Below, one piece after another: positions 5,540 through 59,450 of a stretch of 64,000 nt of DNA. The translations under genes were made by a program, and so were the position numbers. How positions within the stretch are numbered: position 1 is the stretch's first letter; each line of letters begins with the position of its first letter. The notes below the pieces were generated by a model. That model ran no database searches, was not told the origin of the DNA, and worked only from the letters and a program-made list of their open reading frames with translations. This DNA is from Gamarada debralockiae (Eukaryota; Ascomycota; Leotiomycetes; Helotiales; Hyphodiscaceae), in the NCBI GenBank assembly GCA_002803225.1, contig NXFV01001789.1, positions 1-64,000 on the forward strand, read 5' to 3'.

Positions 5540-6120
5540 CTGAGGGTAGCGCAACTAGTGCCGCTTTTACTAAATTGAAGCTATTTAGAACTTTGTATAC
5601 ATTCCATTGGTATCAATAACAGTCTGTGTAATAGCTACGGGTAGCTAGAGGGAAACAGGAGGGAGCACAGTGTATCAGAGAAGTAGCAGTGTGGTAAAAG
5701 AGACAATAATGGTTATATTCGTGGTAGTTGAAAAGAGGTTCCGAAGTACTTATACGCTTGTGAGTAAGAAAACTCAAGCTTGCCTTTCTCCAAGTAAGGT
5801 CGATAGCCCTTACTTATACCCAATTCCTGGCTCCTAGCTCTAGTAGCAGCCATACTCGCTATTAGCCTCATATAAGCTAAGATGAGCGTTTCTGATTCCT
5901 TTAGAGGTCAGCGAGGCCTAGATCTCCAGCTCCCAGGTCACCTTGTACTGTACCCTATGGCTTTCCCTCAGGGCTTCCACAGGTCTATATCAACCCCTTC
6001 AAGTTCCTCCAAGCCTAGACTACTCCTTCAAGGCCTGGGTCTTATTCTAGTCCTTCGAGGCTTCTGATCTTCAGAACTTCCGCGAGTCTAGATTAACTCC
6101 TTCAAGGTTGACGCATTTGT
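5540..6120. repeat. probable degraded transposon sequence
   Basis: This stretch is rich in TA, TAG and CTA words (for example repeated CTAGCT/TAGCTA and CCTTCAAGGC motifs) with no usable coding frame. The texture is typical of RIP-damaged repeats. No terminal repeats could be defined by eye. Confidence 0.3.
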
Positions 6121-25359: not shown

Positions 25360-28300
25360 ATGCGCCTCCTAGAATACAACAACGATGGCGAGCTCAGCCT
25401 GACCAAGGATTTTGTTGGCGGCGAGATTCCCGAATATGCTATCCTTTCGCACACATGGGGGGCGGATACAGAAGAGGTCACATACAGAGACCTGATAGAT
25501 GGCACTGGGAAGAACAAGGTTGGATACAAGAAGATTCAGTTCTGCGGAGAACAGGCCAGACGTAATGACCTGCACAACTTCTGGGTTGATACGTGTTGTA
25601 TCGACAAATCGAACAACAATGAGCTCGCAGAGGCTATCAACTCTATGTTTCGATGGTACCGTGATGCGGCGAAGTGCTACGTCTTTTTGTCAGACGTTCC
25701 GAGAGCGGACGTTGACACCACTGACCATTCCCAGCAGCTTCCCTGGGAATCGGCATTCCGAACAAGCAGATGGTTCACCCGAGGCTGGACCCTTCAAGAG
25801 CTTATCGCACCTAAGACTGTCGAATTTTACTCCAGAGATCATGTCCTACTTGGTGATAAAGCCTCGCTTGAACAGCAGATCTACGAAATAACTGGTATCG
25901 CCATTGAGGCACTTCGAGGACACTCTTTACAAGATTTCAGCATCCAAGAGAGATTTCGATGGGTGGAGAAGCGACAGACAACAAAAGAAGAGGATCTCGT
26001 ATACTGTCTTCTTGGAATTTTCAATATTTACTTACCCCTCATTTATGGAGAAGGCCGGACCCACGCAATGGGAAGGCTTGAAAGGATGATCAAGGAATCT
26101 GAACCGCAATCATTTGGTAAGACGTGGCGTGTATCAATATCTACTTTACAGACCGCTTCTCTTTGGGGAAGTTAGTTCAAAGGGGATAGCGTCATTGTAA
26201 ATTTTGATCTTTTGTTTAGACACTGACTCTAAATGGCGTAGTGGAAGTTTCTCAGATCAGAGATCTCATCAATCTGAGCGACGTAAGTGAAAACATTTGG
26301 AAGGAAGAACATTCGAAAATCATGCAGTCGCTTTCCTCTACAAACTTTTGGGGCAAGCAAGTCGACCTCTTTAGACGAGCTCAAAAGGGCAGTGGTCAAT
26401 GGATTTTGGAGGACGAGAGACTCAAGTCGTGGCTTACAGAACACCCCAAAATCTGTTGGTGTAAGGGTGAGGCTGGGGCAGGGAAAACCTTCCTCTCAGC
26501 CATCATCATTGACTATTTGTCCTTCTCAATGAAGAACAAAAACATTGGTATTGCTTGGTTATACGTCGACTATCGTGAGCGCGATTCACACACACTGGAG
26601 AATTTTTACGCAAACCTTCTTCTTCAACTGTTCAAGCAAACTGGCGGACTGTCTAAGTCGATGATGAAATCTCTCGGCTCCAAGCGTGAAGAAGCAAAGC
26701 CATCTGCAGCGGAATACAAGTCCTGGCTACAAGAGGAGGTGCAGAAGTTTGATCGGACAATCATCATCATTGACGCCTTAGATGAAATGCGTACCAAAGA
26801 GCTCTGCAAGCAGCTCATCGATGAGCTTCAATCTCTGATTCCACGGATACACCTTCTTGTCACGTCAAGATCAGAGGTGCGGCTTCCTATTATGAGCGAC
26901 GATCTTATCGAAATCGAAATTCGGCCACGAAAAGATGATGTGATTCTTTTTATTGAAAGTCGACTCCAGGATAGCCCGCTACTATGGGATCATATTTCTA
27001 AAAACCCTTCGCTCAGAGATCTTACTATGGACATGTTAACCAAAGCAAATAACAGGATGTCAGTAAAGACTAGTTTTCCTAAAGCTATGGGCCTAATTCT
27101 TGTGTAGGTTCTTGAAGGCCGAGTTGATTCTCAATGTATTAGAACACTTAAAGACCGCCAAAGAAGTGGAAGAGACACTCAATTCGCTACCTGACACTTA
27201 CGATGGCTGCTATGAGTTCACGCTCAAGCAAATCGAAAGGAAAGATGCCCCTCAACGTCAGTTGGCATTCAAAGTTCTGTCCTGGCTATCTTTTGTCTTC
27301 GATGGTCTGACAGTCTCAGCGTTCCAGGAGGCGCTCTCAGTCCAGACAGGAGATAAAAAAGTGGAGGAGGAGAAGCTAATACCAGTGGAAGAGCTCATTT
27401 CTGTCTGTAGTGGCCTTGTGGTTACTTACTCCGACACTGAAAATAACACCCAAAAAATTCGTTTACTTCATGAGACAGCTAGCACGTACCTGAAGAATGT
27501 TGGCTCCCCACTTGGTCATGAAATGATTCTGGAAGCTTGCTTGGCTTATCTGTCTTTAACCAAGTTTTCAGAACTCTGTATCTTCAGGACGAGAATCGAT
27601 GAGAGAGGAAGACAGCACCCGTTTTATCAGTATGCTGCAACGTATTGGTCACGTCATGTGATTCAAGGGAAACTTGAAACAACCTTCCGGGACCCAATCA
27701 TCAAGTTTCTCGAGAGCTACCAACGCCGTTCTGCTGATGAGTTCTTGTCATCTGGCCTTCCTAGTGCTTGGGGTTGCGACAATTCCACACCTTGGACTGA
27801 CTGGAATAAGCGGTCCGTCGATAGAAGAGACCGTCCGCTCCATGCCGCAGCAGCTTATGGGCTGGGCAAGATAGTGCGATATTTCATAAAGAAGAAAGGC
27901 TATGAAAAGGATGGACGCAACAATTTTGGCGAAACAGCGCTTCATCGAGCGGCACAAGTCGGCCGCACTGGAACTATGGAAGAGCTCATAGCTCAGGGCG
28001 CCGATTTAAATTCCAAAGTTTACCACCACTATTTCAAAGAGACAACCGCACTTATGCTAGCAATGAACTGTCAGCGGATCGAGGCTGTTCGAGTCCTCCT
28101 CAATCATGGGGCGGATTTGAATACCTTCGACCCGAAGAATCCTACCTTTCCCTTGCACATCGCAGCGAGCATGAATACAAGATTAACGCGACTCCTTCTC
28201 GATCATGGAGCGACCGTCCACTTCCCTGGAATATCCCCTCAATTCCCCGAACTGTGGCCAGGAAGTCTTCATTTTACCGTCTTTTACGCTCATGAATTTC

Positions 28301-29208
28301 CCGGGGCTCTTGAGAGGGTAAATCTTCTCCTCGACAGAGGTGCGAATATCAACGCTCAGTCAAGTGCGGGTAACACTGCATTACATATGGCTATTCTTGG
28401 TGGACATCAAGACTTAGTGCATATTTTACTTCAAAAAGGTGCAAATATCACCCTCAAAAACCAAAGAAGTAAATCTGCCGTCCAGCTTGCACGGGAAAGG
28501 GGCCATCTGGATTGGATTGAGGAAGGTATTCCAACTGAGCTTTTCCGGAGCCTACCAATCGGCCCACCTTTACAAAGGGCTATCTGGTCCAGAAACCACT
28601 CTCTAGTTCACGAACTCTTGGAAAAAGGACATGACATTGCAGAAGAAGATCAAGAGATGGTCACTCCGTGGGGATACTGTATACTGAGCGGCGATGTTGA
28701 ACTGGCACAAATCCTGGTCGACCATATGGAGAAACGCAAATCTATCAACCATGTGGGAAACACCGCCTTTGAGCTCGCCTTGACTCACATGACAGCGTTT
28801 AATTACACAGATGAGTGGTCGTGGGAGAAGACTGTTCAGATTTGCCGGAAGCTTCTTCCATTTCGAAGGATGTTTGATCCGAATTTAGAGTTTACTAAAA
28901 CCGAGAGCCCTATTTGTGACTACAAAAAGACATTCTTGATATGGGCGGCTGAGCTAGGAAGGATCGATGAAGCGGAATTTTTCCTGGACTGTGGTAGTGA
29001 TGTGAACGCCAGGGATGTTTTTGGAGGCTCTGGGTTAAGTTACGCCGTGGGCCGGCGAAGCTATGATATGGTCAACCTTCTGATCCAAAGGGGGGCCAAC
29101 CCGAAGCTTGAAGACAATACAGGTCTAACACCACTTATGGCTGCAGAGAATGCCGGAAACATAGTGATCAAGAAGTTGCTCCAGGATACATCATCTGGAC
29201 AATCCTAA
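25360..29208 (+). CDS. NLR-like protein: HET, NACHT and ankyrin repeats
   Basis: Three exons, join(25360..26116,26242..27058,27108..29208), give 1224 residues. Residues 1-250 form a HET domain of the heterokaryon-incompatibility type (start MRLLEYN, YAILSHTWG, FWVDTCCIDKS, RWFTRGWTLQELIAP, then LVYCLLGIF). The central part is a NACHT NTPase with Walker A GEAGAGKT (about 328-335) and Walker B IIIIDALDE (about 426-434), plus the winged-helix-like region after it. From about residue 765 to the end run ankyrin repeats (for example ETALHRAAQVGRTGTMEEL and NTALHMAILGGHQDLVHIL). HET-NACHT-ANK proteins act in fungal self/non-self recognition, with HET as cell-death effector and ankyrins as sensor; this role is inferred from the family. 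Introns are 125 and 49 nt, and the splice sites rebuild KANNRM-FLKAEL. The gene is intact, and all key motifs are present. It sits in repeat-rich surroundings. Confidence 0.92.
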
Positions 29209-37266: not shown

Positions 37267-40200
37267 TCAAACCATAGAATCATAAGTCCAGCCCCCTTGT
37301 CTTCTGACCCTGTCCCTTGCCTCCAAATCCTTTCTGATTTCATCTTCCGTAAGACGGTCCTGACCTGACCAATTGGCACTTGATGTCCTTGCCCTGAACT
37401 TGTGGAACCTATCCTTGCTCTTGGGGAAGACCTCCTCCATGTTCAAAGCCCCAGGCTGCCCAAAAACTTCAGAAGGATCAATAGTCTCCTGCTTTGCCAA
37501 TTGTGTTCGAAGTGCAGGAGAGTTGGCCCATGCCAAAGGCACAAAGTCGTCATTCGCATCGTCATCATCGTCTTCTGAATCTGTATTGATCTCTGGAAGC
37601 TCGATGTTCTCTCCATTCTGATATCGTGGCGATGACCGGGCTGCAGATTTTCCGGCCGACTTCCCTCCATTCGTAGGTGCACCAGGCCGAACTGGAGTTT
37701 TGTAAGATTGCGAGTTGGCTTGACTAGAGCTGGGAGCGAAAGGAATCGGCGCTTTCGAGACTTGTGCCATGTCCATCGGATGAGCTGGCTTCGACTGATT
37801 CATGTTATGCTGAGAAATGAGTGTAGAACGCTGGAGGTTGCCTGGTTGCGGCGCATTGACATAGCCACTTGGGAACAATGACTTTGTGAGCATTTCCTGC
37901 GAGGAGTTAGTAGAAAACTGGAAAGTCGAAGAAGATTCTTACCTTTGGACGACTGCTGGATTGCCGAATAGGAGGGGCCTTAATGTTGGCATGGGGCTCT
38001 GTCATATCCTCATCGTCGTCGTCAAATGTCTCATTGGTCTTGCGACGCTTGGTGTGTGTATCATTGTGTTGATACGAGGGAGGATTTCGTTGCATTGTAG
38101 GACGAGAGTGATGCTCGTCGGCATCTTGCTGAAGCGGTCGTTTCGGCGGTGCCTTCGCTGTATTGTGCAACACCGAGTTCACCGATCTACCGATGTCTTC
38201 TTGCGGTCGCTGAACAGTGTTATTCAAGCGAGTAGCTTCATTACGCTGTGGCGGAGCGGGTGGTAATGCTTTGTCTTGCATCACTGAACTCTTGAGATCC
38301 CCACTAGGCTGAGGTCGGATTGCTGGAGGTGGAGCTCCTGTCTGCTTTGCCTTCTCCATTTCAAGTCTCCTCTTTTCAATCGCTTGTCTAGAGGCACTCT
38401 TCTTGGCATCGGCCAGACTTGCAGCCTGCTCTCTTTCCCGTTGAATTTCGCGTTGACGAGCGGCTTCTTGACGGCGCTGTTGCTCTTCTTTGCGGCGCTC
38501 TTCTTCTTTGATCGCTGCCCGTTGTCGTTCAATATCGAGTTTCGCCTCCCGCTTACGTTGTGCAGCAAGTTCATCCTAGTCAAGTTAGTAAATGCACAGC
38601 TGACACCTGAGATCTGAACATACCTGTTCCTTCTTCCTTGCCGCAGCCTCCAGGGCCTTGGTCGCTGCTGATTTAAAACTACTTGTTGATGCCTTGCTCT
38701 GGATGGAACTAGTGCTGGCTTTATTGCGCAACGCGCCCTGGGAAGATGAAGCTGGAGCCGTCAAAGATTCCTGAAGAGTTGCTGCCAATGTGGAGTTTGA
38801 TGGGTGGTACTGATGTCCGCGTTGAGATCCGGTGTCCACTCTGATCACAGTTGGAGGCTGTTTGGCCTTGGCGAGGGGCTCCTTGGCAGGTTTCAATGGT
38901 CGTTTTGCTGCTGCTCTCCCGATTTGAGACTTCGGTCGAGGGACTGCTGGAGGTGGCATAGCCGATACATCAGACATCTCTGTGTCATTCGAGAGTTCAT
39001 CGACACTAGCCGCAGCAGCAGCAATTCCTTCGGCCTCTAGTTGAGCCTTGGTTTTACGCGGACTGCTTCGAGTGGCTCTTGGGACATCGACCTGACCTGC
39101 CTTAGCCGATTTCTCCTGCTCCTTACGAGCAGCAATCTGCCTCTGCATGGCTGCAACTCGTTCTTGCTCGAGGTGGTGTACATGAGCCTCTTCCTTAACT
39201 TTTGCGCGTGCCTTCTCCAATTGCTCTGCCATCTTCCGGGCTTCCTTCGATTCCTTGGCTTCCTTAGCTTCCCTTGCCTCTTCCTCCTTTCGGCGCTCTT
39301 CCCTTTCGGTCGAGGCTCGGGTCTTACGGACGCCCGCCTTTCCGGGGCTGTTGGGTGCGAGCTGACTTTGCTGATCATCCTTGATGGTATTCAAATTAGG
39401 ATATGAGGGTTGAGACTGTAGCGCGTCCTCAAATGACTGCACAGAGTTCATACCGATGCGATTCGATGAAGGAGACAGAGCGGATGTCTTTGCCTCAGCA
39501 CTAACAGCCGCACTGCTTGCAAACAGACCTCTAGAAGTTTTGAGTATTGATGAGAACTTTTCTTTGGCTGCCTTTAACGGACTACCCCGATAACTTCTTG
39601 AGGGTGATTTTGGAGGCGTGGTCAATTCGGCGTCATCTCTACCAACGGAAGGGTCTGGGTTGGAAACAGAGATTCCCTTTTGGTGCCCTGGCGAATCTCC
39701 CACTTTCTTGGGGGGGCGAAGGACCGAAGTTGACACAGACTTGATGTTACTCAGAGTGCTCGTTGTTCGCTCAGGGATGGAAGGCTGCTCACGAAGCGGG
39801 GATCGCTGCCTCTGTTCATCACCTCGCTTGGGGATGTTGAACTGCGATCCTCCAATGCTGTCTTTGCCATGAATGCCTTCCATGACATCTGTAGAATGGT
39901 ATTTCGTCATCTGGGGCCGCGGGCTAAAAACAGATGGCTCAGCAGCGGGGGCTGCAGTTGGGGGACCAATCCAGCTATCATCTTCATCTTCTGGGAAAGC
40001 TCCAGGAGCAACAAATGGCCGATTTTGTCGTTGAGGTGAGCGTTGAGGAGACCGTGCAGGAGACTTTGGCTGCTGCACTTCCTGAGTGGCTGGAGCTTGA
40101 CTTGGTTGGCTGGCATGGGAAGCAGCTGCTCCACTATTAGCGATAGATTTAGATGGTCTCACATTGGATTGCGATTTTCCAAGCATGCTGATTTGATCCT

Positions 40201-41532
40201 GCAACCTCTGCGTAGAAGTTTTGCTGTGAAGGCGGGATATTTTCGAATCACTATCGAGATCATCGCGGTCATTTTCATCCTTATCCAATTCATCGACGTC
40301 CATATTATCGTCGTGCTCATCCTGAGCATCTTCATGTCTGGAGTTCCCAAGGCTCTTGCCCCCTGTTTGTCGGCCATAGTAGCTTGTTCGCGTCTGGTCT
40401 AACTGACTCGTGCGGGATACACGGTTTCCGATGCTCTTTTTTGTTGTGATGGGTTCACGAGCAGGCAACGATGCGAAATTCAAACTGCTTTTCCGAACGA
40501 TTGGCCGAATGGGACTTGAGCCCTCGGAGGGAGAACGTATGTCATCCATATGCTCATCTACGATCGCAGGAGCTGTCTCCTCGACTGTCTGTGCAAGCTT
40601 TGGTGGAGATTCTGCCGCAATGGGCCGCTCTGGTGATCGTTTCTGTGGTGATGCTGGCTTCTGGAGTCGGTTGAGAAGAGGGGATTCAAGCACAGGGTGC
40701 GTTGCTTCCTCAAGCTCTCCATGGGGTTTCGAGTTCTCAGGCTCTGGCGCTAGCTCTGCTGTTATATTTCGCGTCTGCTCCTCTTTGGCCGATTGGAATG
40801 AACCCTCGGTTGTCCGTAGATCCTTTAATTCCTCACTTATATCCATTGCATCGTGAACTGCCTCAATGATATCGTCTTTGGGGGGAGGTGTAGGACCTCG
40901 CGGTGAGAGGGCGCTCTCGATCGCTTCATTAAGTTGTGTGGGTTGGGTCGCGTCGCACATCTGGCTGCCATGATATCCAGAGTCCAGAAAGTTCGTGACA
41001 GGCTTCTGGGGTAAATATTCCTGTGTTTTCGCGACCTCTTGTACAACTTGGGGTTCCGGTGGCCCTGGTTCATCTTCCGCTACTTGAAAGGTCGCGACTG
41101 GTTTCTCGAAGTGTGTTTGTCGGAAAGGGCTCGGTCCGCCTCGTGGTGTCGATGAGAAAACATCTGATAATGGCTGTGAATAATTAGCAATGAAGATAAG
41201 TTGCGCCTTTCGGTTACTTACTGCGCGTCCTTCCAGCGGGTTATTCTTTCGACCTGTCCTAGGCGTCTTCCCTCGTAGTTTGCCCGGTGTTTTGAAGATT
41301 TCCGCGACGTTCCTGGGCCCGTAACGTTAGCAATGATCTCGCAGTGAAGCTTGTTTACTTACACTTGGTTTTTGCTAAATATCTCTGCCATATGCTCATT
41401 CAACCACTCGATCTCATTTCGCGCCGAAAAAGTAAACTCCTCTGCCTCTGCTTCCGCAATCTGCACAGCAGAAGCTCGTTCTTCTGATATCCATGATGCA
41501 GATCCTACTTGTAATCGCGAGGTCGCCCGCAT
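37267..41532 (-). CDS. inner centromere protein (INCENP/Sli15-like)
   Basis: Five exons, complement(join(37267..37896,37943..38575,38624..41173,41222..41312,41363..41532)), give 1357 residues. INCENP is the scaffold of the chromosomal passenger complex that binds and activates Aurora kinase at centromeres and the spindle midzone. The N-terminus carries the conserved fungal block EWLNEHMAEIFSKNQVNVAE and IFKTPGKLRGKTPRTGRK. A long disordered Ser/Pro region follows, then a highly charged single-helix stretch (EEEARE and KEEERRKEEQQRRQE types). The C-terminal IN-box spans about 1245-1340 (IELPEINTDSEDD, LAWANSPALR, FRARTSSANW) and is the Aurora-binding region with its Thr-Ser-Ser activation site. 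All junctions keep phase. The introns are about 46-50 nt. The gene is intact. Confidence 0.93.
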
Positions 41533-50208: not shown

Positions 50209-51411
50209 TTTGAGAGACTGAGTAAAGCAGGAGGAGCTTATGTAGTGAAATGGAATTGGTGCTGTAGGACCCTCATCTTGAAAGCAGACTCCATTATTAT
50301 ATACTTATATAACAGCCCTATCTGAGCACATTCTGGACGGAGAGTTTCCTAAGTGAATACGAAATGAAGCTAGTAGATTTCGTTACGAGACAATATAGAT
50401 GTAGAAATTTCGAGACGCATTCAGTGCTTATGAAGATGTGGTGGGTTGCTTGAGAGTCTGCGGAGTACGGTAAAGGCATGAGACTATAGCGTGTAACAGC
50501 CTGTAGTGAACGTTAGAACCTATGCGCGTATAGTCATCGCTTCCTAAATCTCACCGTTCCTTAGTTGCGGCGTGCTGTCCCGGTCGCTAGTTGTGGGTTG
50601 AGCCATGCTGCCTACACTAGTAGGGGTACGGGCTTGAATTCTGGCAGGGCTGAGCTCCAAAAACTGAATGAATGTTGAGTGGTGAGTCGAGGGTTACTGC
50701 ACCTGAGAAGAGCGGCAAGGCTCACTAAGCGTACTGGAAGCAAAGACGGTCAGTTTTGTAGCCGAATATCTTCGTAGTCTAATGATACAACGTATATACT
50801 CTTTTACGATGTGTAACAGGTTGGTATTTTTAACTGGCTGGAATCGTCTCAGCAATTCGCAATTTGGGCCGGATCTCGAAGTCTTCGAGTTTTTTGTAAA
50901 ATCATCTGAATGATTAGGAAAATCGAGCTCCGGCGTATTACGAACCGTTTTAATTATCAATCGTTTGAGCGATTCAGAAATCTCGTTCTGACTAAGAGGA
51001 TACAAAGGCAGCAAAGTGCAAACCACAACAAAAGGACTCAACCACATAATTAATGGAACGCCCACTTTGCTTCATTTCTGCCCAAACACTTAATATCCAT
51101 TTTGACTTGCTCTTGGTGTGAGTAAGGCCGTTGCTTAGAATCCTTGAAAACCTTCCTCTTTATGAATGCTCCTGATACTGGGGTTTTTGATTAACATTTG
51201 AATGATTGGAGTTTTGCAGAACTAATATTTGTGCCTTAGTGATTGACAATAAAGAGAAGACAGAACCAAAGGAGTCGCACCAAAGAGGAGATCCTATGGA
51301 AACCTTCTTCCACTATCCTCTCTTTGTTCCCTTCACGGCCTTTGTGTCGAGCTCCACAACACCTTAACTTAGCTAAAAAAAAAAAAGTTCAGAAAAGACA
51401 GAGGTTAGATA
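50209..51411. other. intergenic flank left of the repeat-bounded unit
   Basis: No gene is supported. The right end has an A-rich run (51376-51387) just before the inverted-repeat terminus. Confidence 0.3.
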
Positions 51412-51479
51412 CAGTAAAGTTCGAAATCGGCTTCAGTTCCGAACACTCAGTGATCTTATTTGCCTTCGTACTTCTTAGC
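51412..51479. repeat. outer terminal inverted repeat, left
   Basis: Pairs with 54741-54807 reversed. Shared blocks include GTTCGAAATC, GCTTCAGTT, GAACACTCA and GCCTTCGTACTTCTTAGC. Confidence 0.8.
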
Positions 51480-51500
51480 AAGCTAAGAAGTACGAAGGCA
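51461..51500. repeat. 40-bp perfect hairpin
   Basis: Arms of 19 bp (51461-51479 and 51482-51500) are exactly complementary around a 2-nt AA centre. The right-arm word GCTAAGAAGTACGAAGG recurs at about 51916, 52114 and 54741. Confidence 0.9.
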
Positions 51501-51709
51501 CAAGAGTGCTAGCCTTCGGCTCGCACGAAGCCTGCTTTCAGAAGAAAGGTCTACAGTAGTGATTACAGTCGGAAGCGAACTCGGCTTCACACTAAACACT
51601 ATGATTTTATTTCTGACCCAGTCAATCCTCAGGCAGCAGCTCACTTTTCTACGTGCACAAGAGTGCTAGCCTACGGCTCGCACGAAGCCTTCGCACTTTC
51701 AGAAGAGAA
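51499..51709. repeat. short direct duplication
   Basis: The block ACAAGAGTGCTAGCC followed by CGGCTCGCACGAAGCCT occurs at 51500-51533 and again at 51656-51690, with similar flanks. Confidence 0.75.
51562..51618. repeat. inner inverted repeat, left
   Basis: Starts TTACAGTCGGAAGCGAAC and pairs with 54475-54533 reversed (shared GGAAGCGAA, TTCACACTA, AACACT and ATGATTTT blocks). Confidence 0.7.
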
Positions 51710-51723
51710 GGCCTAGTGATTAA

Positions 51724-51932
51724 ACAGCTCCCGTGGCTCTAAAAATTCCAAAAATAACAAGATAATAGTACGATTATTAAGCGAAAAAGTTTAAAAACAC
51801 GTGATTGTATGCGGATACAGGGATTGAATTTTCGACCCCAGACCAGACTAACTTATACCCGATTTTCGGTGTTGGAAGTGTCCAGTAAGCTTTTCGAAGC
51901 TCCTTCTCTTAGCAAGCTAAGAAGTACGAAGG
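51724..51932. repeat. direct repeat, left copy
   Basis: About 209 bp, matching 54534-54757 in the same orientation with scattered differences. Shared words include GTGATTGTATGCGGATACAG and ACTTATACCC. Its second half recurs once more at 52042-52130. Confidence 0.8.
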
Positions 51933-52041
51933 TAAAGTCAACCTAGTAAGCAAAGTTCATTGACACAAGATAGATGACGTAAGAGAGATCACGTGTAAAC
52001 ATAGCACTAGCAGGGTTTAAAAAATTCGAGCCGGGTCGGCG

Positions 52042-52130
52042 TAACTTATACCCGGTTTTCGGTGTTGGAAGTGTCCGGTAGGCTTTTCGAAGCCCCTTCT
52101 TCTTCTTAGCAAGCTAAGAAGTACGAAGGC
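52042..52130. repeat. direct repeat, partial extra copy
   Basis: Repeats the second half of 51724-51932 (AACTTATACCCGGTTTTCGG, then GAAGTGTCCGGTAGGC), ending in the hairpin-arm word. Confidence 0.8.
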
Positions 52131-52163
52131 ACTACAAAAGCAGGAGAAGTTAGCGAACACCGG

Positions 52164-52213
52164 TCTAAAATTCAGCTAGCCATAATAGTACTAGTGTGCC
52201 CGAAAATGTGGGT
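52164..52213. repeat. short direct repeat before the gene
   Basis: Matches 54428-54477 (AGCTAGCCATAATAGTACTA versus AGCTAGCTATAATAGTGCTA). It therefore brackets the coding region closely on both sides. Confidence 0.7.
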
Positions 52214-52325
52214 ATTTAAGATCCCACACAGTCCCACTCTCGCCCTGTCAACTCACAACTCTAGCGACCCCAGATTCCTCATAACTAAAAGTTGTATTTG
52301 CTTTACCTATAGACACACTTCTCAA

Positions 52326-54206
52326 ATGGCACAGCACCGCCTTCGGCTCGAAGACTACACAGTGGGATGGGTGTGTGCCATCCCTATCGAACTTGCTGTT
52401 GCGAAGATGATGCTGGACGAAGAACATCAAGATTTATTTCACGATCCCACTGAGCAAATCATATACACACTTGGCCGTATCGGCAAACATAATGTTGTCA
52501 TCGCGTGTCTGCCGACCGGCTGGGTGGGAACCAACTCTGCGGCTGCAGTCGTCGTCCAGATGCGTTTAAAGTTCACCTCAATCCAGTTCAGCCTGATGGT
52601 AGGCATCGGAAGCGGAGTCCCAAACGATCAATCGGACATACGGCTTGGAGATGTGGTGGTCGGTCACGGTCACCACGGTGGAGTGGTTCAATATGACCTT
52701 GGGAAGACTACGTCAAGTGGATTTGTAAGGACGGGTTTCCTCAACAAACCACCACTAATCCTTCTGAACGTTCTTACAAACCTGCAAGCCAATCGCCTCA
52801 TAGGCCGGAGCAGTCTCTTGATGCATTTGTCCGCACTTAGCGATCGACCGAATTTTGCACGAGAAAATGCAGGACCCGATGTTTTGTTCAAATCGAGTTA
52901 CCAGCATATTGGTGGGTCTACATGTGAGATGTGTGAGAAAGACACAACAGTCGAGGACAGATTAGTCAAACGGACCTTACGTGGTAGTCAAGAGATTGAG
53001 GTTCATTATGGCACGATAGCCTCCAGTAATGTGGTCATTAAAGACGGGGTCACTAGAGACAGGCTAAGCTCGGAGCTTGATGGTGTCCTTTGCTTCGAGA
53101 TGGAAACGGCAGGACTGATGAATAACTACCCGTGTCTTGTCATTCGAGGTATCTGCGACTATGCCGACTCGCACAAGAACAAAAATTGGCAGCCTTACGC
53201 TGCAGCAGCAGCTGCTGCGTGTGCCAAGGAGATTCTATTGGTCATACCTGCGGCTGAAGTAGCGACGACACGTAATACTAGCGGAGGGTGGACTGACCTC
53301 AATAGGTTAACTAGTGCCCAAGGAGATGGTGTTAAGAAGATCAGAGAGGCCTTGTCGAATGGCTCCTTAGTGATTGTGGCAGGGGCGGGGATATCTAAAA
53401 ACGCAACTGTCGGCGTCGATATCCCTCTGCCCCAGTTGGACTGGCCTGGCCTGATCGAACACGGACTAAACTACCTCTGCTCGGATATTGGATTTCCAAA
53501 CGATTCACAATGCGTCCTAGACGAGGCTGACCTATATCGTAAAATACTCGAAGGCAGGCGGAAGGTTGAAGTGCCCACAAGAGTTTTGATTCGGGGAGCC
53601 ACATTCGTGAAAGCCGAACTCAATGAGCACAATGAGCTCGCAACCTGGCTCGATCATGCCTTTAGCGACTTGTATGAGAAACATGTTATTCATCAGAGGC
53701 CTGAGATCCTTGAAGTCCTGGCTAAACTTCACCAAGCAGGGGCAAGACTTGTGACCACCAACTACGACGACTTCTTGGAAAGGCGCTGCGGTGTACACGC
53801 GATTGACCCTGGAAATACTACGGAAGTTTCGACATTCTTGATTGCTAGCAAGCAACCAAAAGGTGTTCTCCATGTACATGGGTGTTATAACAAAGTCAGG
53901 GGTGCCGTACTCGATGTCCTCGATTATAACCAAATCACTCGAGATGAAAAGATGCAAATGATTCTCAGGGGCTTTTTCCTCAGTAACACGGTCTTGTTCA
54001 TCGGGACTGGTGCGGGGCTACTGGACCCAAATTTCAGTTGTTTGTTGGAATGGGCCAGTGAACACTACAAAAACGTTCCAAAGAGACACTATGTTCTCCT
54101 CCGCCGCAAAGATCTGAAGCAGTATCCAGCCCTGATTCCTATTCCGTATGGGGAGGACTTCAAGGACCTTGCCCCATTTCTTCAGAAACAGGTTATCCAA
54201 TTATAG
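52326..54206 (+). CDS. PNP/UDP nucleosidase-like and SIR2-like fusion protein
   Basis: A single-exon gene of 626 residues. The start was set at 52326 (MAQHRLRLEDYTVGW), where the conserved PNP_UDP domain begins; an in-frame ATG 44 codons upstream is probably leader. Residues about 8-315 form a nucleoside-phosphorylase-like domain as found in fungal NLRs: VGIGSGVPN, DIRLGDVVVG, CFEMETAG, RGICDYADSHKNK (catalytic-type Glu and Asp kept). Residues about 335-610 form a SIR2 fold of the prokaryotic-defence type: IVAGAGIS (352-357), LVTTNYDDFLE (Asn479), VLHVHG (His518), FIGTGAGLLDPN. These are the NAD-binding Asn and catalytic His positions of NADase-type SIR2 domains. No NACHT/NB-ARC or repeat domain links them. 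A role as sensor-NADase in immunity or incompatibility is inferred. It is the only gene inside the repeat-bounded unit at 51412-54807. Confidence 0.9.
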   Translation: MAQHRLRLEDYTVGWVCAIPIELAVAKMMLDEEHQDLFHDPTEQIIYTLGRIGKHNVVIACLPTGWVGTNSAAAVVVQMRLKFTSIQFSLMVGIGSGVPNDQSDIRLGDVVVGHGHHGGVVQYDLGKTTSSGFVRTGFLNKPPLILLNVLTNLQANRLIGRSSLLMHLSALSDRPNFARENAGPDVLFKSSYQHIGGSTCEMCEKDTTVEDRLVKRTLRGSQEIEVHYGTIASSNVVIKDGVTRDRLSSELDGVLCFEMETAGLMNNYPCLVIRGICDYADSHKNKNWQPYAAAAAAACAKEILLVIPAAEVATTRNTSGGWTDLNRLTSAQGDGVKKIREALSNGSLVIVAGAGISKNATVGVDIPLPQLDWPGLIEHGLNYLCSDIGFPNDSQCVLDEADLYRKILEGRRKVEVPTRVLIRGATFVKAELNEHNELATWLDHAFSDLYEKHVIHQRPEILEVLAKLHQAGARLVTTNYDDFLERRCGVHAIDPGNTTEVSTFLIASKQPKGVLHVHGCYNKVRGAVLDVLDYNQITRDEKMQMILRGFFLSNTVLFIGTGAGLLDPNFSCLLEWASEHYKNVPKRHYVLLRRKDLKQYPALIPIPYGEDFKDLAPFLQKQVIQL

Positions 54207-54474
54207 TCGTTGATGTTGACCAATCAGCAGACGATGGTTAAACCTTTTATAGCCTAATAGTTCTATTTACTCCGTAATTTGTTCCAGTGTTATGCCTGGG
54301 CTTGGGAGTCGCGAACAAAGTTGACCAGTGCTCAGCGCCGATATTAGCCGAGGTCTGCCAAATCCTCAGGCAGCAATCCACTTTTGACGTGTGACCCCAT
54401 AGAGCAGGGGAATTATGTAATGCAGAGATCTAGAATAAAGCTAGCTATAATAGTGCTAGTGTACAGGAAATGTG

Positions 54475-54533
54475 GGTCAACATGAAAATCATAGAGTGTT
54501 CTAGTGTGAAACCGATTTCGCTTCCTACAGTAA
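54475..54533. repeat. inner inverted repeat, right
   Basis: Reverse complement matches 51562-51618. Confidence 0.7.
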
Positions 54534-54757
54534 ACAGCTCTCATGGCTCTTAAAATTCCAAAAATAACGAGAAAATGGTAGCTTAGGCAGCGATTGTTAA
54601 GCGAAAAGATTTAAAACCACGTGATTGTATGCGGATACAGGGATTAATAAATTCCGACTCCGGACCGGACTAACTTATACCCGGTTTTCGGTATTGGAAG
54701 TGTCCGGTAAGCTTTTCGAAGCCCCTTCTTCTCTTAGCAAGCTAAGAAGTACGAAGG
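54534..54757. repeat. direct repeat, right copy
   Basis: Matches 51724-51932 in the same orientation. It lies outside the inner inverted repeat, whereas the left copy lies inside, which shows that the flanks have been rearranged. Confidence 0.8.
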
Positions 54758-54807
54758 CATAAAAATCATTGAGTGTTCAGAACTGAAGCAGATTTCGAAC
54801 TCTACTG
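54741..54807. repeat. outer terminal inverted repeat, right
   Basis: Reverse complement matches 51412-51479. It is followed by TA at 54808-54809. Confidence 0.8.
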
Positions 54808-54809
54808 TA

Positions 54810-56746: not shown

Positions 56747-59450
56747 ATGGCCAAGAGCGAGTCTCCCAATGGTGAGAAGGGCGAGAAGAAGGATTTTATC
56801 TTCGACGAGGCCAGATTGATGTACATCCTCGAACGTGAGAAGTCGGAATATCTAGGTTCATTGGAGTCTCGACTTCCTCACCTTCCACAGAAAGCAAATC
56901 CAGCGTTCGCTCCACAATACATAGTACGTCATCGCAGTGATCCTTTCCCTGCCCAAGATCGCGATTCCCAAACTCCAACTTGGTTTGGAAGTCACGGAGT
57001 CTGTGTTGCTCGAACCCTCGTCATGTTTTGAACGACTACTGACTCAAGCTTCACAGCATCCACAGCGACCAGTAGCAAAGTGCCAAGTGCCAGGCCATGT
57101 CCTCGTCGTCCACGCGTTCGTCCGAAACCTTCTTGCCGGCCAGCCTTCACCGTTCAGCCAAGAAATCTTCATGGACAGCGAGCTCTGCTCCTTTTCCGCC
57201 CCTTATCATAAGTGGGTCCGAGATGAGGAGTCATACTCATTTGGCCAAAAGGGATGGGTGAAGGACGTGTACCTGCCGGGAAACCCAATCAAGTACAAGA
57301 ACGTCTGTGTTTACAACAATTATCAGACCATCAGCTTACCTAACAGTGCGTATTGATCCTGATCCTGGCTAGTTCCAATATTCCTCCTGTTCCGAGCAAT
57401 TGCTAACTCGGAAGCTTCACAGATGGAGGTGAGATTGGTGGATCCTGCACCGTGTACACCAGAAAGTTCCCAATCGACTACGAGCATGTCCCAGGCATGC
57501 ACTTCCAGGCGCCTGCGAGAAAGATTGGAACGAAGGAACCCGATTCGCGCGAAGCTCGCCAAGCTAGAGCCAATAAACCAAATGAGCCGATCGTCTGGCA
57601 GGTATGTATTTTCCCGGAGCAATCGTCTTCAACCATTCATCCAGGCCCGTGATTCTTACGAGTCCCAGAGATCGAGTTTTCACTTCTTTTGAACGATTAT
57701 TAACTCCAGAATTTTACAGTACTCGGCAACAGCACACATGGAAGACCAATGGCATACGGTTGACGCTCTGGTATCGACGAGAATTGAGAAGATAAATGGC
57801 GTTGAGTACGACGTGGAACCGACCTGGGATGATGTTGTCAAGGCGCTCAAGACGGAAATTACCCGGCGAGAAATGACTTGGAACTGGCCAGTCAGTGGAT
57901 GTTTCAAGCAGGAAGAACAATCGCAAAACGCCTGGGCAGGTCCAGTCAGCCAGATATTCAAGCAGGGAGAGGGATTGCAGAGTGCTGGAGCAGGGCCTAT
58001 TGCCCAAAAGTTCAGTCCAAATGAACGACTGCAAAAGATCTTCGAAAATAGCAAGCAAGAATCGCAATACGCAGCGAGACCCTTTCCACCGGGATGGAAT
58101 GACCCATTTGCAAGCACTGCCACCCAGTCTCCTCCACAAATGCAATCAAAGAAGCGACGTCGGAGTTCTGCAGCCCAAGAAGGTGATGCAAACCCTCGTC
58201 CTAGAGGAAGACCTCGCAATGGGTCCAAAGGAAATACCAATCAACAATCGTTCACGCAACAGCTCATCCCACCACAGAAGATACCTGAAATTCCACCATA
58301 CCACAATGACGCCCTGCAATTGCCGCGAGTGGAAGGCTTTAGTGGTATTCCATACGGAGGAGCTGGCGGAAACAATTGGCACAATAGCCAAAGCTCTCAA
58401 CAACAGAACATCATGAACATGCAAGGTGGTAGTAGTAGTTTGACAGGTGGTCAAGGAAGTGAGCATACTCAGTCGATGCAATACCAGCAGTGCTCCGGAT
58501 ACACATCGCCATATGGTGGTCCGCAGCAAGAACATCGTCTGATGAGCCAACAGTCATCGATGACCCCTCAACCCTTCCAGCAGCACACTGTCGAAGGCAA
58601 TAGTTATTTCCCACCTCAACACCCTCAATATGGCTTCAGCACGGGTACATCTGACCCCGATACAAGAGCATCACACCCTTCTCAACCCCGCAACGATCGA
58701 AGCTATCATCCCCCACCCCAACAAGACAGCGCCGACGACCGGAGTTCTCGCCCGCCCATGCAACCTACCCAATCATGGCAGCCACAGAATATCCAGCACT
58801 ATCAGCTAAGTAGCGGTGAGACCGGCTCCTTCCACGTTCACAACCACCCCCCATGCAGCCAATCTACCGCCCAGGCCCCTGAAACCGGCTTCTATCCGAA
58901 CAACGGCCCACCACGAAGTCAATCCGCCATCCAAATCCCTCACCCACCAATGAGAACACCGACAATCCCCGCACCACCAAAGCATGTCAGGGGCCTTAGT
59001 GACCAAGGCGTGGGACAATTCACACGAACCACGAACCCCAATTTGCTAGCTAAACTCGACAAGAACACTGCAGTCACTCTCGAGTTCGCCCATAACCTTT
59101 CCCCGGCCCAAAGAGAGGAGGTCCTGTTGCGATATAGCGAGTTCAAGCATGGCTTAATGAACGATCCATTTTACGTACCGAGCCATACCAGCAGCGTGGG
59201 CAGGAGGGCAGGTGGAAAGCGAGGATTGCAGAAGTGTTTGGAGCAGATCGAAGCAGCTCAGGGAATGGAGTGCGCGCGAGAGACTGCATTGCATACGCTT
59301 CAGCAAGCGACGCGCAACATCAAGGATGCTCGATCGGGAGTTGGTGGTGTCGAGAAGTCGTTCACTGTGGTTCCCGGTGACGGCGAAGTGGCTGACAATG
59401 TGTCTGAGCTTTCGAGCTCTGATAACTCGACTGAGATTGCAGTACTATGA
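56747..59450 (+). CDS. uncharacterised fungal protein with an AT-hook-like motif
   Basis: Four exons, join(56747..56923,57057..57345,57423..57601,57720..59450), give 791 residues. The start sits in a strong ACCATGG context. Residues 1-230 look globular (DFIFDEARLMYILEREKSEY, WVKDVYLPGNPIKYKNVCVY, CTVYTRKFPIDYEHVPGMHF). A helical block with MEDQWHTVDALVSTRIEKIN follows. The middle 350 residues are disordered, Gln/Pro/Ser-rich, and include a basic patch KKRRRSS and the AT-hook-like RPRGRPRNG. A C-terminal helical module runs LAKLDKNTAVTLEFAHNLSP and LQKCLEQIEAAQGM. The basic/AT-hook region suggests a nuclear, DNA-associated role, but this is inference. I do not recognise the family. Introns are 133, 77 and 118 nt with CTGAC/TAACT branch sites, and all junctions keep phase. 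Confidence 0.75.

Follow-up and report, generated by a model that had tools for sequence, protein, structure and literature searches.

What does a transposon-like unit do with a single immunity-type gene in its interior, and does such a unit stand alone in its genome? The question is raised by positions 51410-54809 of the window analysed here, the whole 64,000-nucleotide stretch from contig NXFV01001789.1 of the ascomycete Gamarada debralockiae, where inverted repeats enclose one gene for a nucleosidase-SIR2 (PNP-SIR2) fusion protein. We consider it likely that this unit belongs to a dispersed, non-autonomous, TA-targeting family of cargo transposons, which is moved in trans and whose cargo is biased towards immune genes. 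A preliminary description of this DNA had read the unit as a non-autonomous element spreading a defence-type gene. This reading is partly supported, and in a wider form, as cargo units of the same kind form a family to which this one belongs; the transposon-like structure with its immunity-type gene stands, but no autonomous relative was found in the two transposase families searched.

The left junction of the unit consists of TA followed by CAGTAAAGTTCG (51410/51412) and the right junction of CGAACTCTACTG followed by TA, finishing at 54809. The TA flanks and CAGT ends that had been placed at 51412-54807 are thus confirmed by reading of the sequence. The outer inverted repeats are also present, although they had been put at about 68 bp, and the arms align over 79 bp with 88.6% identity. 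A CAGT start is typical of Tc1/mariner terminal repeats, and the terminal inverted repeats of the family described below begin in this way. Nested within the outer arms are two further ends related to them, at 51564 and 54532 and each with a TA, and the intervening spaces are occupied by copies of another dispersed repeat. The features of the unit, in order, are:

51410-51411, no strand: TA, left flank, putative target-site copy (junction reading and arm alignment)
51412-51461, plus strand: outer left terminal inverted repeat, covering positions 1 to ~52 of the family end as numbered from the TA
51462-51563, plus strand: dispersed repeat with the hairpin CTTCTTAGC-AA-GCTAAGAAG, located near position 52 within the end; several sister ends have it there too
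51564-51640, plus strand: inner left end (TA-CAGTCGGAAGCG...), which is a second, diverged family-end copy
51657-52131, plus strand: genome-dispersed repeat, with a copy on contig C1032 that is 94% identical
52326-54206, plus strand: intact single-exon gene of 626 amino acids, PNP_UDP_1 then SIR2_2; an in-frame upstream ATG at 52206 would give 666 amino acids
54403-54532, minus strand: inner right end, where the family terminal repeat is present at full length (~130 bp) and finishes in ...CTACAG-TA
54533-54757, plus strand: dispersed repeat, a direct copy of about 51721-51936
54758-54807, minus strand: outer right terminal inverted repeat
54808-54809, no strand: TA, right flank, putative target-site copy (junction reading and arm alignment)

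Because the ends are doubled and nested, the exact mobile boundary of the window copy is uncertain. The repeat that fills the spaces belongs to a second dispersed family, marked by the hairpin CTTCTTAGCAAGCTAAGAAG, which occupies 51462-51563, 51657-52131 and 54533-54757 in the window and is found on many other contigs; it also occurs near position 52 of the end in C879, C717, C1111, C25, C366, C576 and C71.

The ends recur throughout the genome assembly (54.3 Mb in 1112 contigs). Protein similarity places this genome with the helotialean fungi, as many named matches of a transporter gene in the window belong to Helotiales; Pyrenochaeta, considered on account of PMC6034849, was dropped on the strength of such a vertical-type gene. 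A 25-bp end pattern, drawn from the ends of C879, C1040, C301 and C431 and used with at most three mismatches, gave 69 matches in the whole genome, and the reversed pattern, which served as the control, gave none; a 16-bp pattern was far noisier (136 matches versus 110 for its control). Homology searches with two whole terminal repeats added eight ends, bringing the total to 77 (42 plus, 35 minus). Within 10 kb, these ends form 11 inward-facing pairs, no outward-facing pair and one same-strand pair, where random scatter of 77 ends would be expected to give 0.27 inward pairs. The paired units are 2.2-8.1 kb long. Ten of them were read; for the eleventh, on C474, the evidence consists of two end matches and a single NACHT match. 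Eight pairs were measured, and the alignment of left with right repeat covers 114-204 bp in six of them, 79 bp in the window unit and 36 bp in C717. The ends fall into two subfamilies, ACTTCGAAACCGG and AGTTCGAAATCGG; the left and right ends of C717 are of different type, and doubled or split ends occur in the window, C25 and C1111. No signature of repeat-induced point mutation was found in the ten units read. A candidate pair on C666 was rejected, as it consists of two 16-bp matches without a long terminal repeat.

Two sets of observations indicate that units of this family have moved in the past. The 3.5-kb unit on C1111 interrupts a dispersed repeat, of which two other copies, both on C717, read straight through. 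These empty copies have GATTAGC-TA-AAGGAG and GATTAGC-TT-AAGGAG, and the C1111 unit has TA on both sides, so that a single TA in one empty copy corresponds to a duplicated TA around the insertion; the right end of this unit lacks CAG. When joined, the flanks of the C1111 unit match the two C717 copies over 84-85 bp (88% and 82% identical). Copied cargo provides the other line of evidence. C1040 and C648 share PNP and NB-ARC cargo that is 88% identical over 3114 aligned sites, and the similarity begins exactly at TACAGT, while the flanks shown there are unrelated; the stretch of C648 that was read ends 91 bases before the contig start, short of the far end. The differences between the two copies are transition-rich, in both directions. 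The interrupted repeat and the copied cargo together indicate past mobility, and the family may be active at present.

About half of the paired units carry genes of immune type. Six of the 11 paired units carry genes for NOD-like receptors (NLRs) or PNP/SIR2 proteins, one is a possible case and four carry other genes. The six comprise C1040 (PNP, then NB-ARC-TPR), C1104 (PNP, NACHT, winged helix, ankyrin), C717 (NACHT-ankyrin), C431 (SIR2), C474 (NACHT) and the window unit (PNP-SIR2), where the cargoes of C1040, C1104, C717 and C431 were read as open frames with no intron model. The possible case is C346, which has a SesA-like N-terminus below the cut-off. Among the others, C301 carries a Cys-rich protein with a NucA/NucB nuclease domain, C834 and C1106 have open reading frames (ORFs) without a Pfam match that look membrane-like by eye, and C1111 has a Cys-rich ORF with no Pfam match in the 260 residues scanned. 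Multiple cargo-bearing copies, which had been named as support, do exist, but without a common cargo: the ends form a family with different single cargoes. Single ends show similar neighbours on their inner side, namely PNP and an NB-ARC-like domain (C648), SIR2 and NACHT (C25), NACHT (C671, C911 and C410) and HET (C512, C248, C943, C867 and C302, the last at 7.7 kb).

This tendency was quantified by a direction test, in which matches to each family were counted inside versus outside the ends, within 8 kb; since each end has both sides, the comparison controls for repeat-rich surroundings. PNP/SIR2 matches were found 6 times inside and 0 times outside (of 45), NACHT 7 and 0 (of 150), HET 5 and 2 (of 150), DDE_1 1 and 1 (of 75), DDE_3 2 and 3 (of 108) and P450 0 and 1 (of 93). 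For the immune families, 18 of 345 matches lie inward, the window's own included, versus 3 of 276 for DDE and P450 together (Fisher p=0.006). Counted by contig, immune families lie inside on 16 and outside on 2 (C647 and C302, the latter in both sets); without the window and with C302 taken as inward only, the count is 15 versus 1 (binomial p=0.0005), and it is 15 versus 2 if C302 is also taken as outward. The 8-kb limit was picked after looking at the data, and 6 kb gives identical counts for PNP/SIR2 and NACHT. The matches tested were 45 of 49 for PNP/SIR2, 150 of 154 for NACHT, all 150 for HET, 75 of 79 for DDE_1, 108 of 136 for DDE_3 and 93 of 112 for P450, with second pieces of one gene and DDE_3 matches below the cut-off left out; one of the latter (C604:106343) is inward of an end. 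Weaker ends beside PNP, SIR2 or HET genes (C986, C534 and C1032 inward; C627 outward) were excluded from all counts.

The gene in the window unit was described as an intact nucleosidase-SIR2 fusion and the sole cargo, and this is what was found. The frame 52206-54206 is the only ORF of at least 150 amino acids within the unit, and its probable start is the ATG at 52326. In the 666-residue reading, Pfam gives PNP_UDP_1 at 36 bits (cut-off 25.1) and SIR2_2 at 60.3 bits (cut-off 24.5), with no further domain at E <=0.001 and no transposase; as Pfam finds neither NACHT nor NB-ARC, the protein is not classed as an NLR. The PNP half retains the motifs FEMETAG and CDYAD, which we take to be functional in this domain. 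The SIR2 half matches human FAM118B at E 2e-14, the PADLOC ThsA models at 2.7e-15 and, weakly, the ThsA sequence itself (E 8e-4). TTNYDD (residues 477-482) and HG (518-519) align with the FAM118B motifs that contain the catalytic Asn and His of SIR2_2. The available part of PMC12700824 names an Asn and a His as needed for NAD processing by FAM118B, together with an Asp, and all three have equivalents in the window protein, assuming a chain numbering offset of 20. For PNP_UDP domains, hydrolase activity on ATP and a role in immune cell death are described in the accessible portion of a review (PMC12881547). The likeness to FAM118B and ThsA, the kept motifs and the reported ATP hydrolysis suggest that the protein encoded in the window unit is probably a cell-death effector that depletes nucleotides, in which ATP or nucleosides would be the substrate of the PNP half and NAD that of the SIR2 half.

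The SIR2_2 proteins FAM118B, ThsA and DSR and the PNP_UDP effector domains of fungal NLRs resemble the window protein in that both of its domains have the conserved motifs, but it differs from them in placing PNP before SIR2 without a nucleotide-binding (NB) domain. All six listed relatives with both domains have SIR2 first, unlike the window protein. A search with the SIR2 half, which finds only relatives sharing short exact words, returned two proteins at E <=1e-20, the best 37% identical, and neither is listed with PF01048. The closest PNP relatives were at first taken as PNP-SIR2 proteins, and alignment placed them as double-PNP or SIR2-PNP proteins. Judged from these sequence comparisons, the PNP-SIR2 order without an NB domain looks rare.

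As for how such units would move, the TA targets and CAGT ends point to Tc1/mariner, and we therefore infer that a transposase of this type, supplied in trans, would recognise the CAGTARASTTCGAAAYCGGCTTC ends and insert the unit at TA. The interior of the family units holds one host-type gene instead of a transposase, in the window unit the PNP-SIR2 gene. New cargo units would probably form when two ends that face inward happen to lie on either side of a gene, as is suggested by the mixed left and right end types and the doubled ends; if two neighbouring ends can be used together, the intervening sequence would be captured. Because the cargo is biased to NLR, PNP, SIR2 and HET genes, the system would spread and duplicate the allorecognition and immune repertoire.

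Several observations weigh against this reading. The similarity around the C1111 empty site extends for ~60 bp or more on the left and for only ~24 bp on the right before it diverges, and the second empty copy has TT where the first has TA. An empty site, which had been proposed as support, was thus found for this sister but not for the window unit: none spans the window junction in the loci read, the whole genome not having been searched, and the same holds, within the same scope, for C1040, C301, C431, C1104 and C717. TA is present at both ends in 8 of the 10 paired units read (in C1104 at the left only, and in C346 the right boundary is not resolved), a count that is partly by construction at pattern-found ends, because TA lies within the search pattern. 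The left and right repeats are only 72-92% identical in the eight pairs measured, so that most insertions are probably not recent. HET genes or fragments lie directly outside two ends (C647:106137-106544 and L048:3141-3947; contigs C647 and C648), and therefore units also land near such genes. Finally, the autonomous relative with the same ends for which a search had been suggested was not found: none of the 215 listed matches (79 DDE_1 and 136 DDE_3) lies inside any of the 11 pairs, in a search that covered these two families and no other transposase family. Three DDE matches above the cut-off sit inward of an end. The transposase ORFs beside an end on C71 were rejected as the autonomous partner, since they are enclosed by their own 49-bp inverted repeat, and no link to the family ends could be made for an open Tc1-type ORF on C513 that lies 3.6 kb away from a single end; the transposases on C513 and C491 are candidate partners at most.

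These transposase loci have features of their own. The element at C71:49824-51306 is of the DDE_3 type, with an ORF broken by one stop and with its 49-bp inverted ends adjoining a family end. On C513, a perfect 36-bp inverted repeat (2173-2208 and 5732-5767) surrounds the open Tc1-type ORF in a region that starts with a family end. Many DDE_1 copies in the genome have several TAG or TAA stops, as after repeat-induced mutation.

How, then, is the bias of the cargo to be explained? We tentatively propose, with clearly less confidence than for the family itself and as something short of an even call, a dedicated immune-gene shuttle, in which one transposase acting in trans would move a set of single-gene NLR, HET, PNP and SIR2 units. 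Such a family may escape repeat-induced mutation, because its copies share short ends only and their cargoes mostly differ. It is also possible, though we lean against it, that this is an ordinary non-autonomous family which captures genes at random, so that the immune bias simply reflects how abundant NLR and HET genes are in this genome. The genome is indeed very rich in them, with 358 NACHT and 770 HET first-look candidates, and the counts above come from the scored candidates among those listed (HET 150 of 770, NACHT 150 of 358, DDE_3 150 of 189, P450 92 of 326 and DDE_1 89 of 89). Moreover, 5 of the 11 paired units (C301, C834, C1106, C1111 and C346) have cargo that is not clearly immune. 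Nevertheless, random capture fits less well with the difference in inward matches between immune families and DDE plus P450, and with the absence of P450 from the inner sides (0 of 93). That the inverted ends are separate short insertions, either miniature inverted-repeat transposable elements (MITEs) or solo ends, which bracket genes by chance without forming a unit, seems improbable to us. In its favour, 55 of the 77 ends have no detected partner inside 10 kb (among the 24 minus ends without a partner, 8 are no more than 10 kb from a contig start), and the ends of one unit can differ, as in C717. However, the excess of inward over outward pairs argues against chance bracketing, the empty site fits the whole C1111 unit and the cargo shared by C1040 and C648 starts at the end. 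Ordinary short MITEs were likewise rejected: no inward pair is shorter than 2.2 kb, no such element occurs in the loci read, and the ten paired units read contain ORFs of at least 146 amino acids.

For the window copy itself, the inner pair (51564-54532) may alone be mobile, the outer pair being a separate short family element into which it jumped; we regard this as doubtful, yet as a serious candidate. All 130 bp of the family end, with TA, are present at the inner right, the outer ends bear the hairpin repeat, and ~430 bp would be left over without the inner unit, but no other short element of the outer type is present among the loci read. Transport of the units within larger mobile elements such as Starships, with the ends incidental, is in our view very unlikely. 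NLRs are known Starship accessory genes, and the cargo transposon ToxTA is nested in Starships according to the accessible part of PMC12506042. Set against this, the units are spread over many contigs, their flanks are unrelated where these were compared, and C1111 shows the insertion of a single unit; a DUF3435 tyrosine-recombinase captain is not in the window unit, where PNP-SIR2 is the sole ORF of at least 150 amino acids, and no genome-wide captain search was made.

A TA-targeting cargo family, as preferred here, has relatives among known systems. Pack-TYPE and similar gene-capturing transposons of plants carry captured host sequence, mostly gene fragments, and are moved in trans; terminal inverted repeats around host sequence are common to both, whereas the genes in the present units are largely whole and show an immune bias. 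The closest known precedent is ToxTA (formerly ToxhAT) of Bipolaris sorokiniana and relatives, which the available text of PMC12506042 and PMC9594970 describes as a non-autonomous Tc1/mariner-like cargo transposon, with a TA duplication, 74-bp repeats, a cargo gene and a single TA in empty sites (PMC12506042). TA duplication, long terminal repeats, a cargo gene and a mobilising transposase that has not been established are shared with the present family, in a comparison by description, not by end sequence. In contrast, ToxTA is a single element of 14 kb whose cargo is a virulence gene, and here many units of 2-8 kb carry different genes, of which about half are of the NLR or PNP/SIR2 kind. The new aspect relative to ToxTA is the many-membered family with immune-biased cargo. 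Starships, as far as the same two sources could be consulted, likewise move NLRs and other self-recognition genes between fungal genomic sites, but they are far larger and have a tyrosine-recombinase captain, whereas each unit described here consists of inverted ends flanked by TA and essentially a single gene. Fungal NLRs are said to be carried by transposons in the accessible part of PMC9815663, and HET genes near transposable elements are reported for Pyrenochaeta in that of PMC6034849. No report of a terminal-inverted-repeat family with single NLR or HET cargo was found in the openly accessible literature.

The growth of fungal NLR and HET repertoires and their variation between strains are an open question, for which a small transposon family carrying immune genes would be a direct and testable engine. 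If the shuttle proposed above is real, the allorecognition repertoire can expand and reshuffle, in a manner parallel in spirit to the defence genes on bacterial mobile elements. The 25-bp end provides a sequence signature for screening other fungal genomes.

Elsewhere in the window, a further NLR-type locus occupies 26322-29208, with NACHT (26388-26870) followed by an ankyrin ORF (27523-29208), and no match to the 25-bp end pattern lies beside it. Two ORFs, 57738-59450 (570 amino acids) and 38585-40960 (791 amino acids), have no Pfam match at E <=0.001. The window also contains a transporter gene of 1234 amino acids, whose product shares 87% identity with an unnamed protein and 78% with one from Hyphodiscus hymeniophilus (Helotiales, Leotiomycetes).

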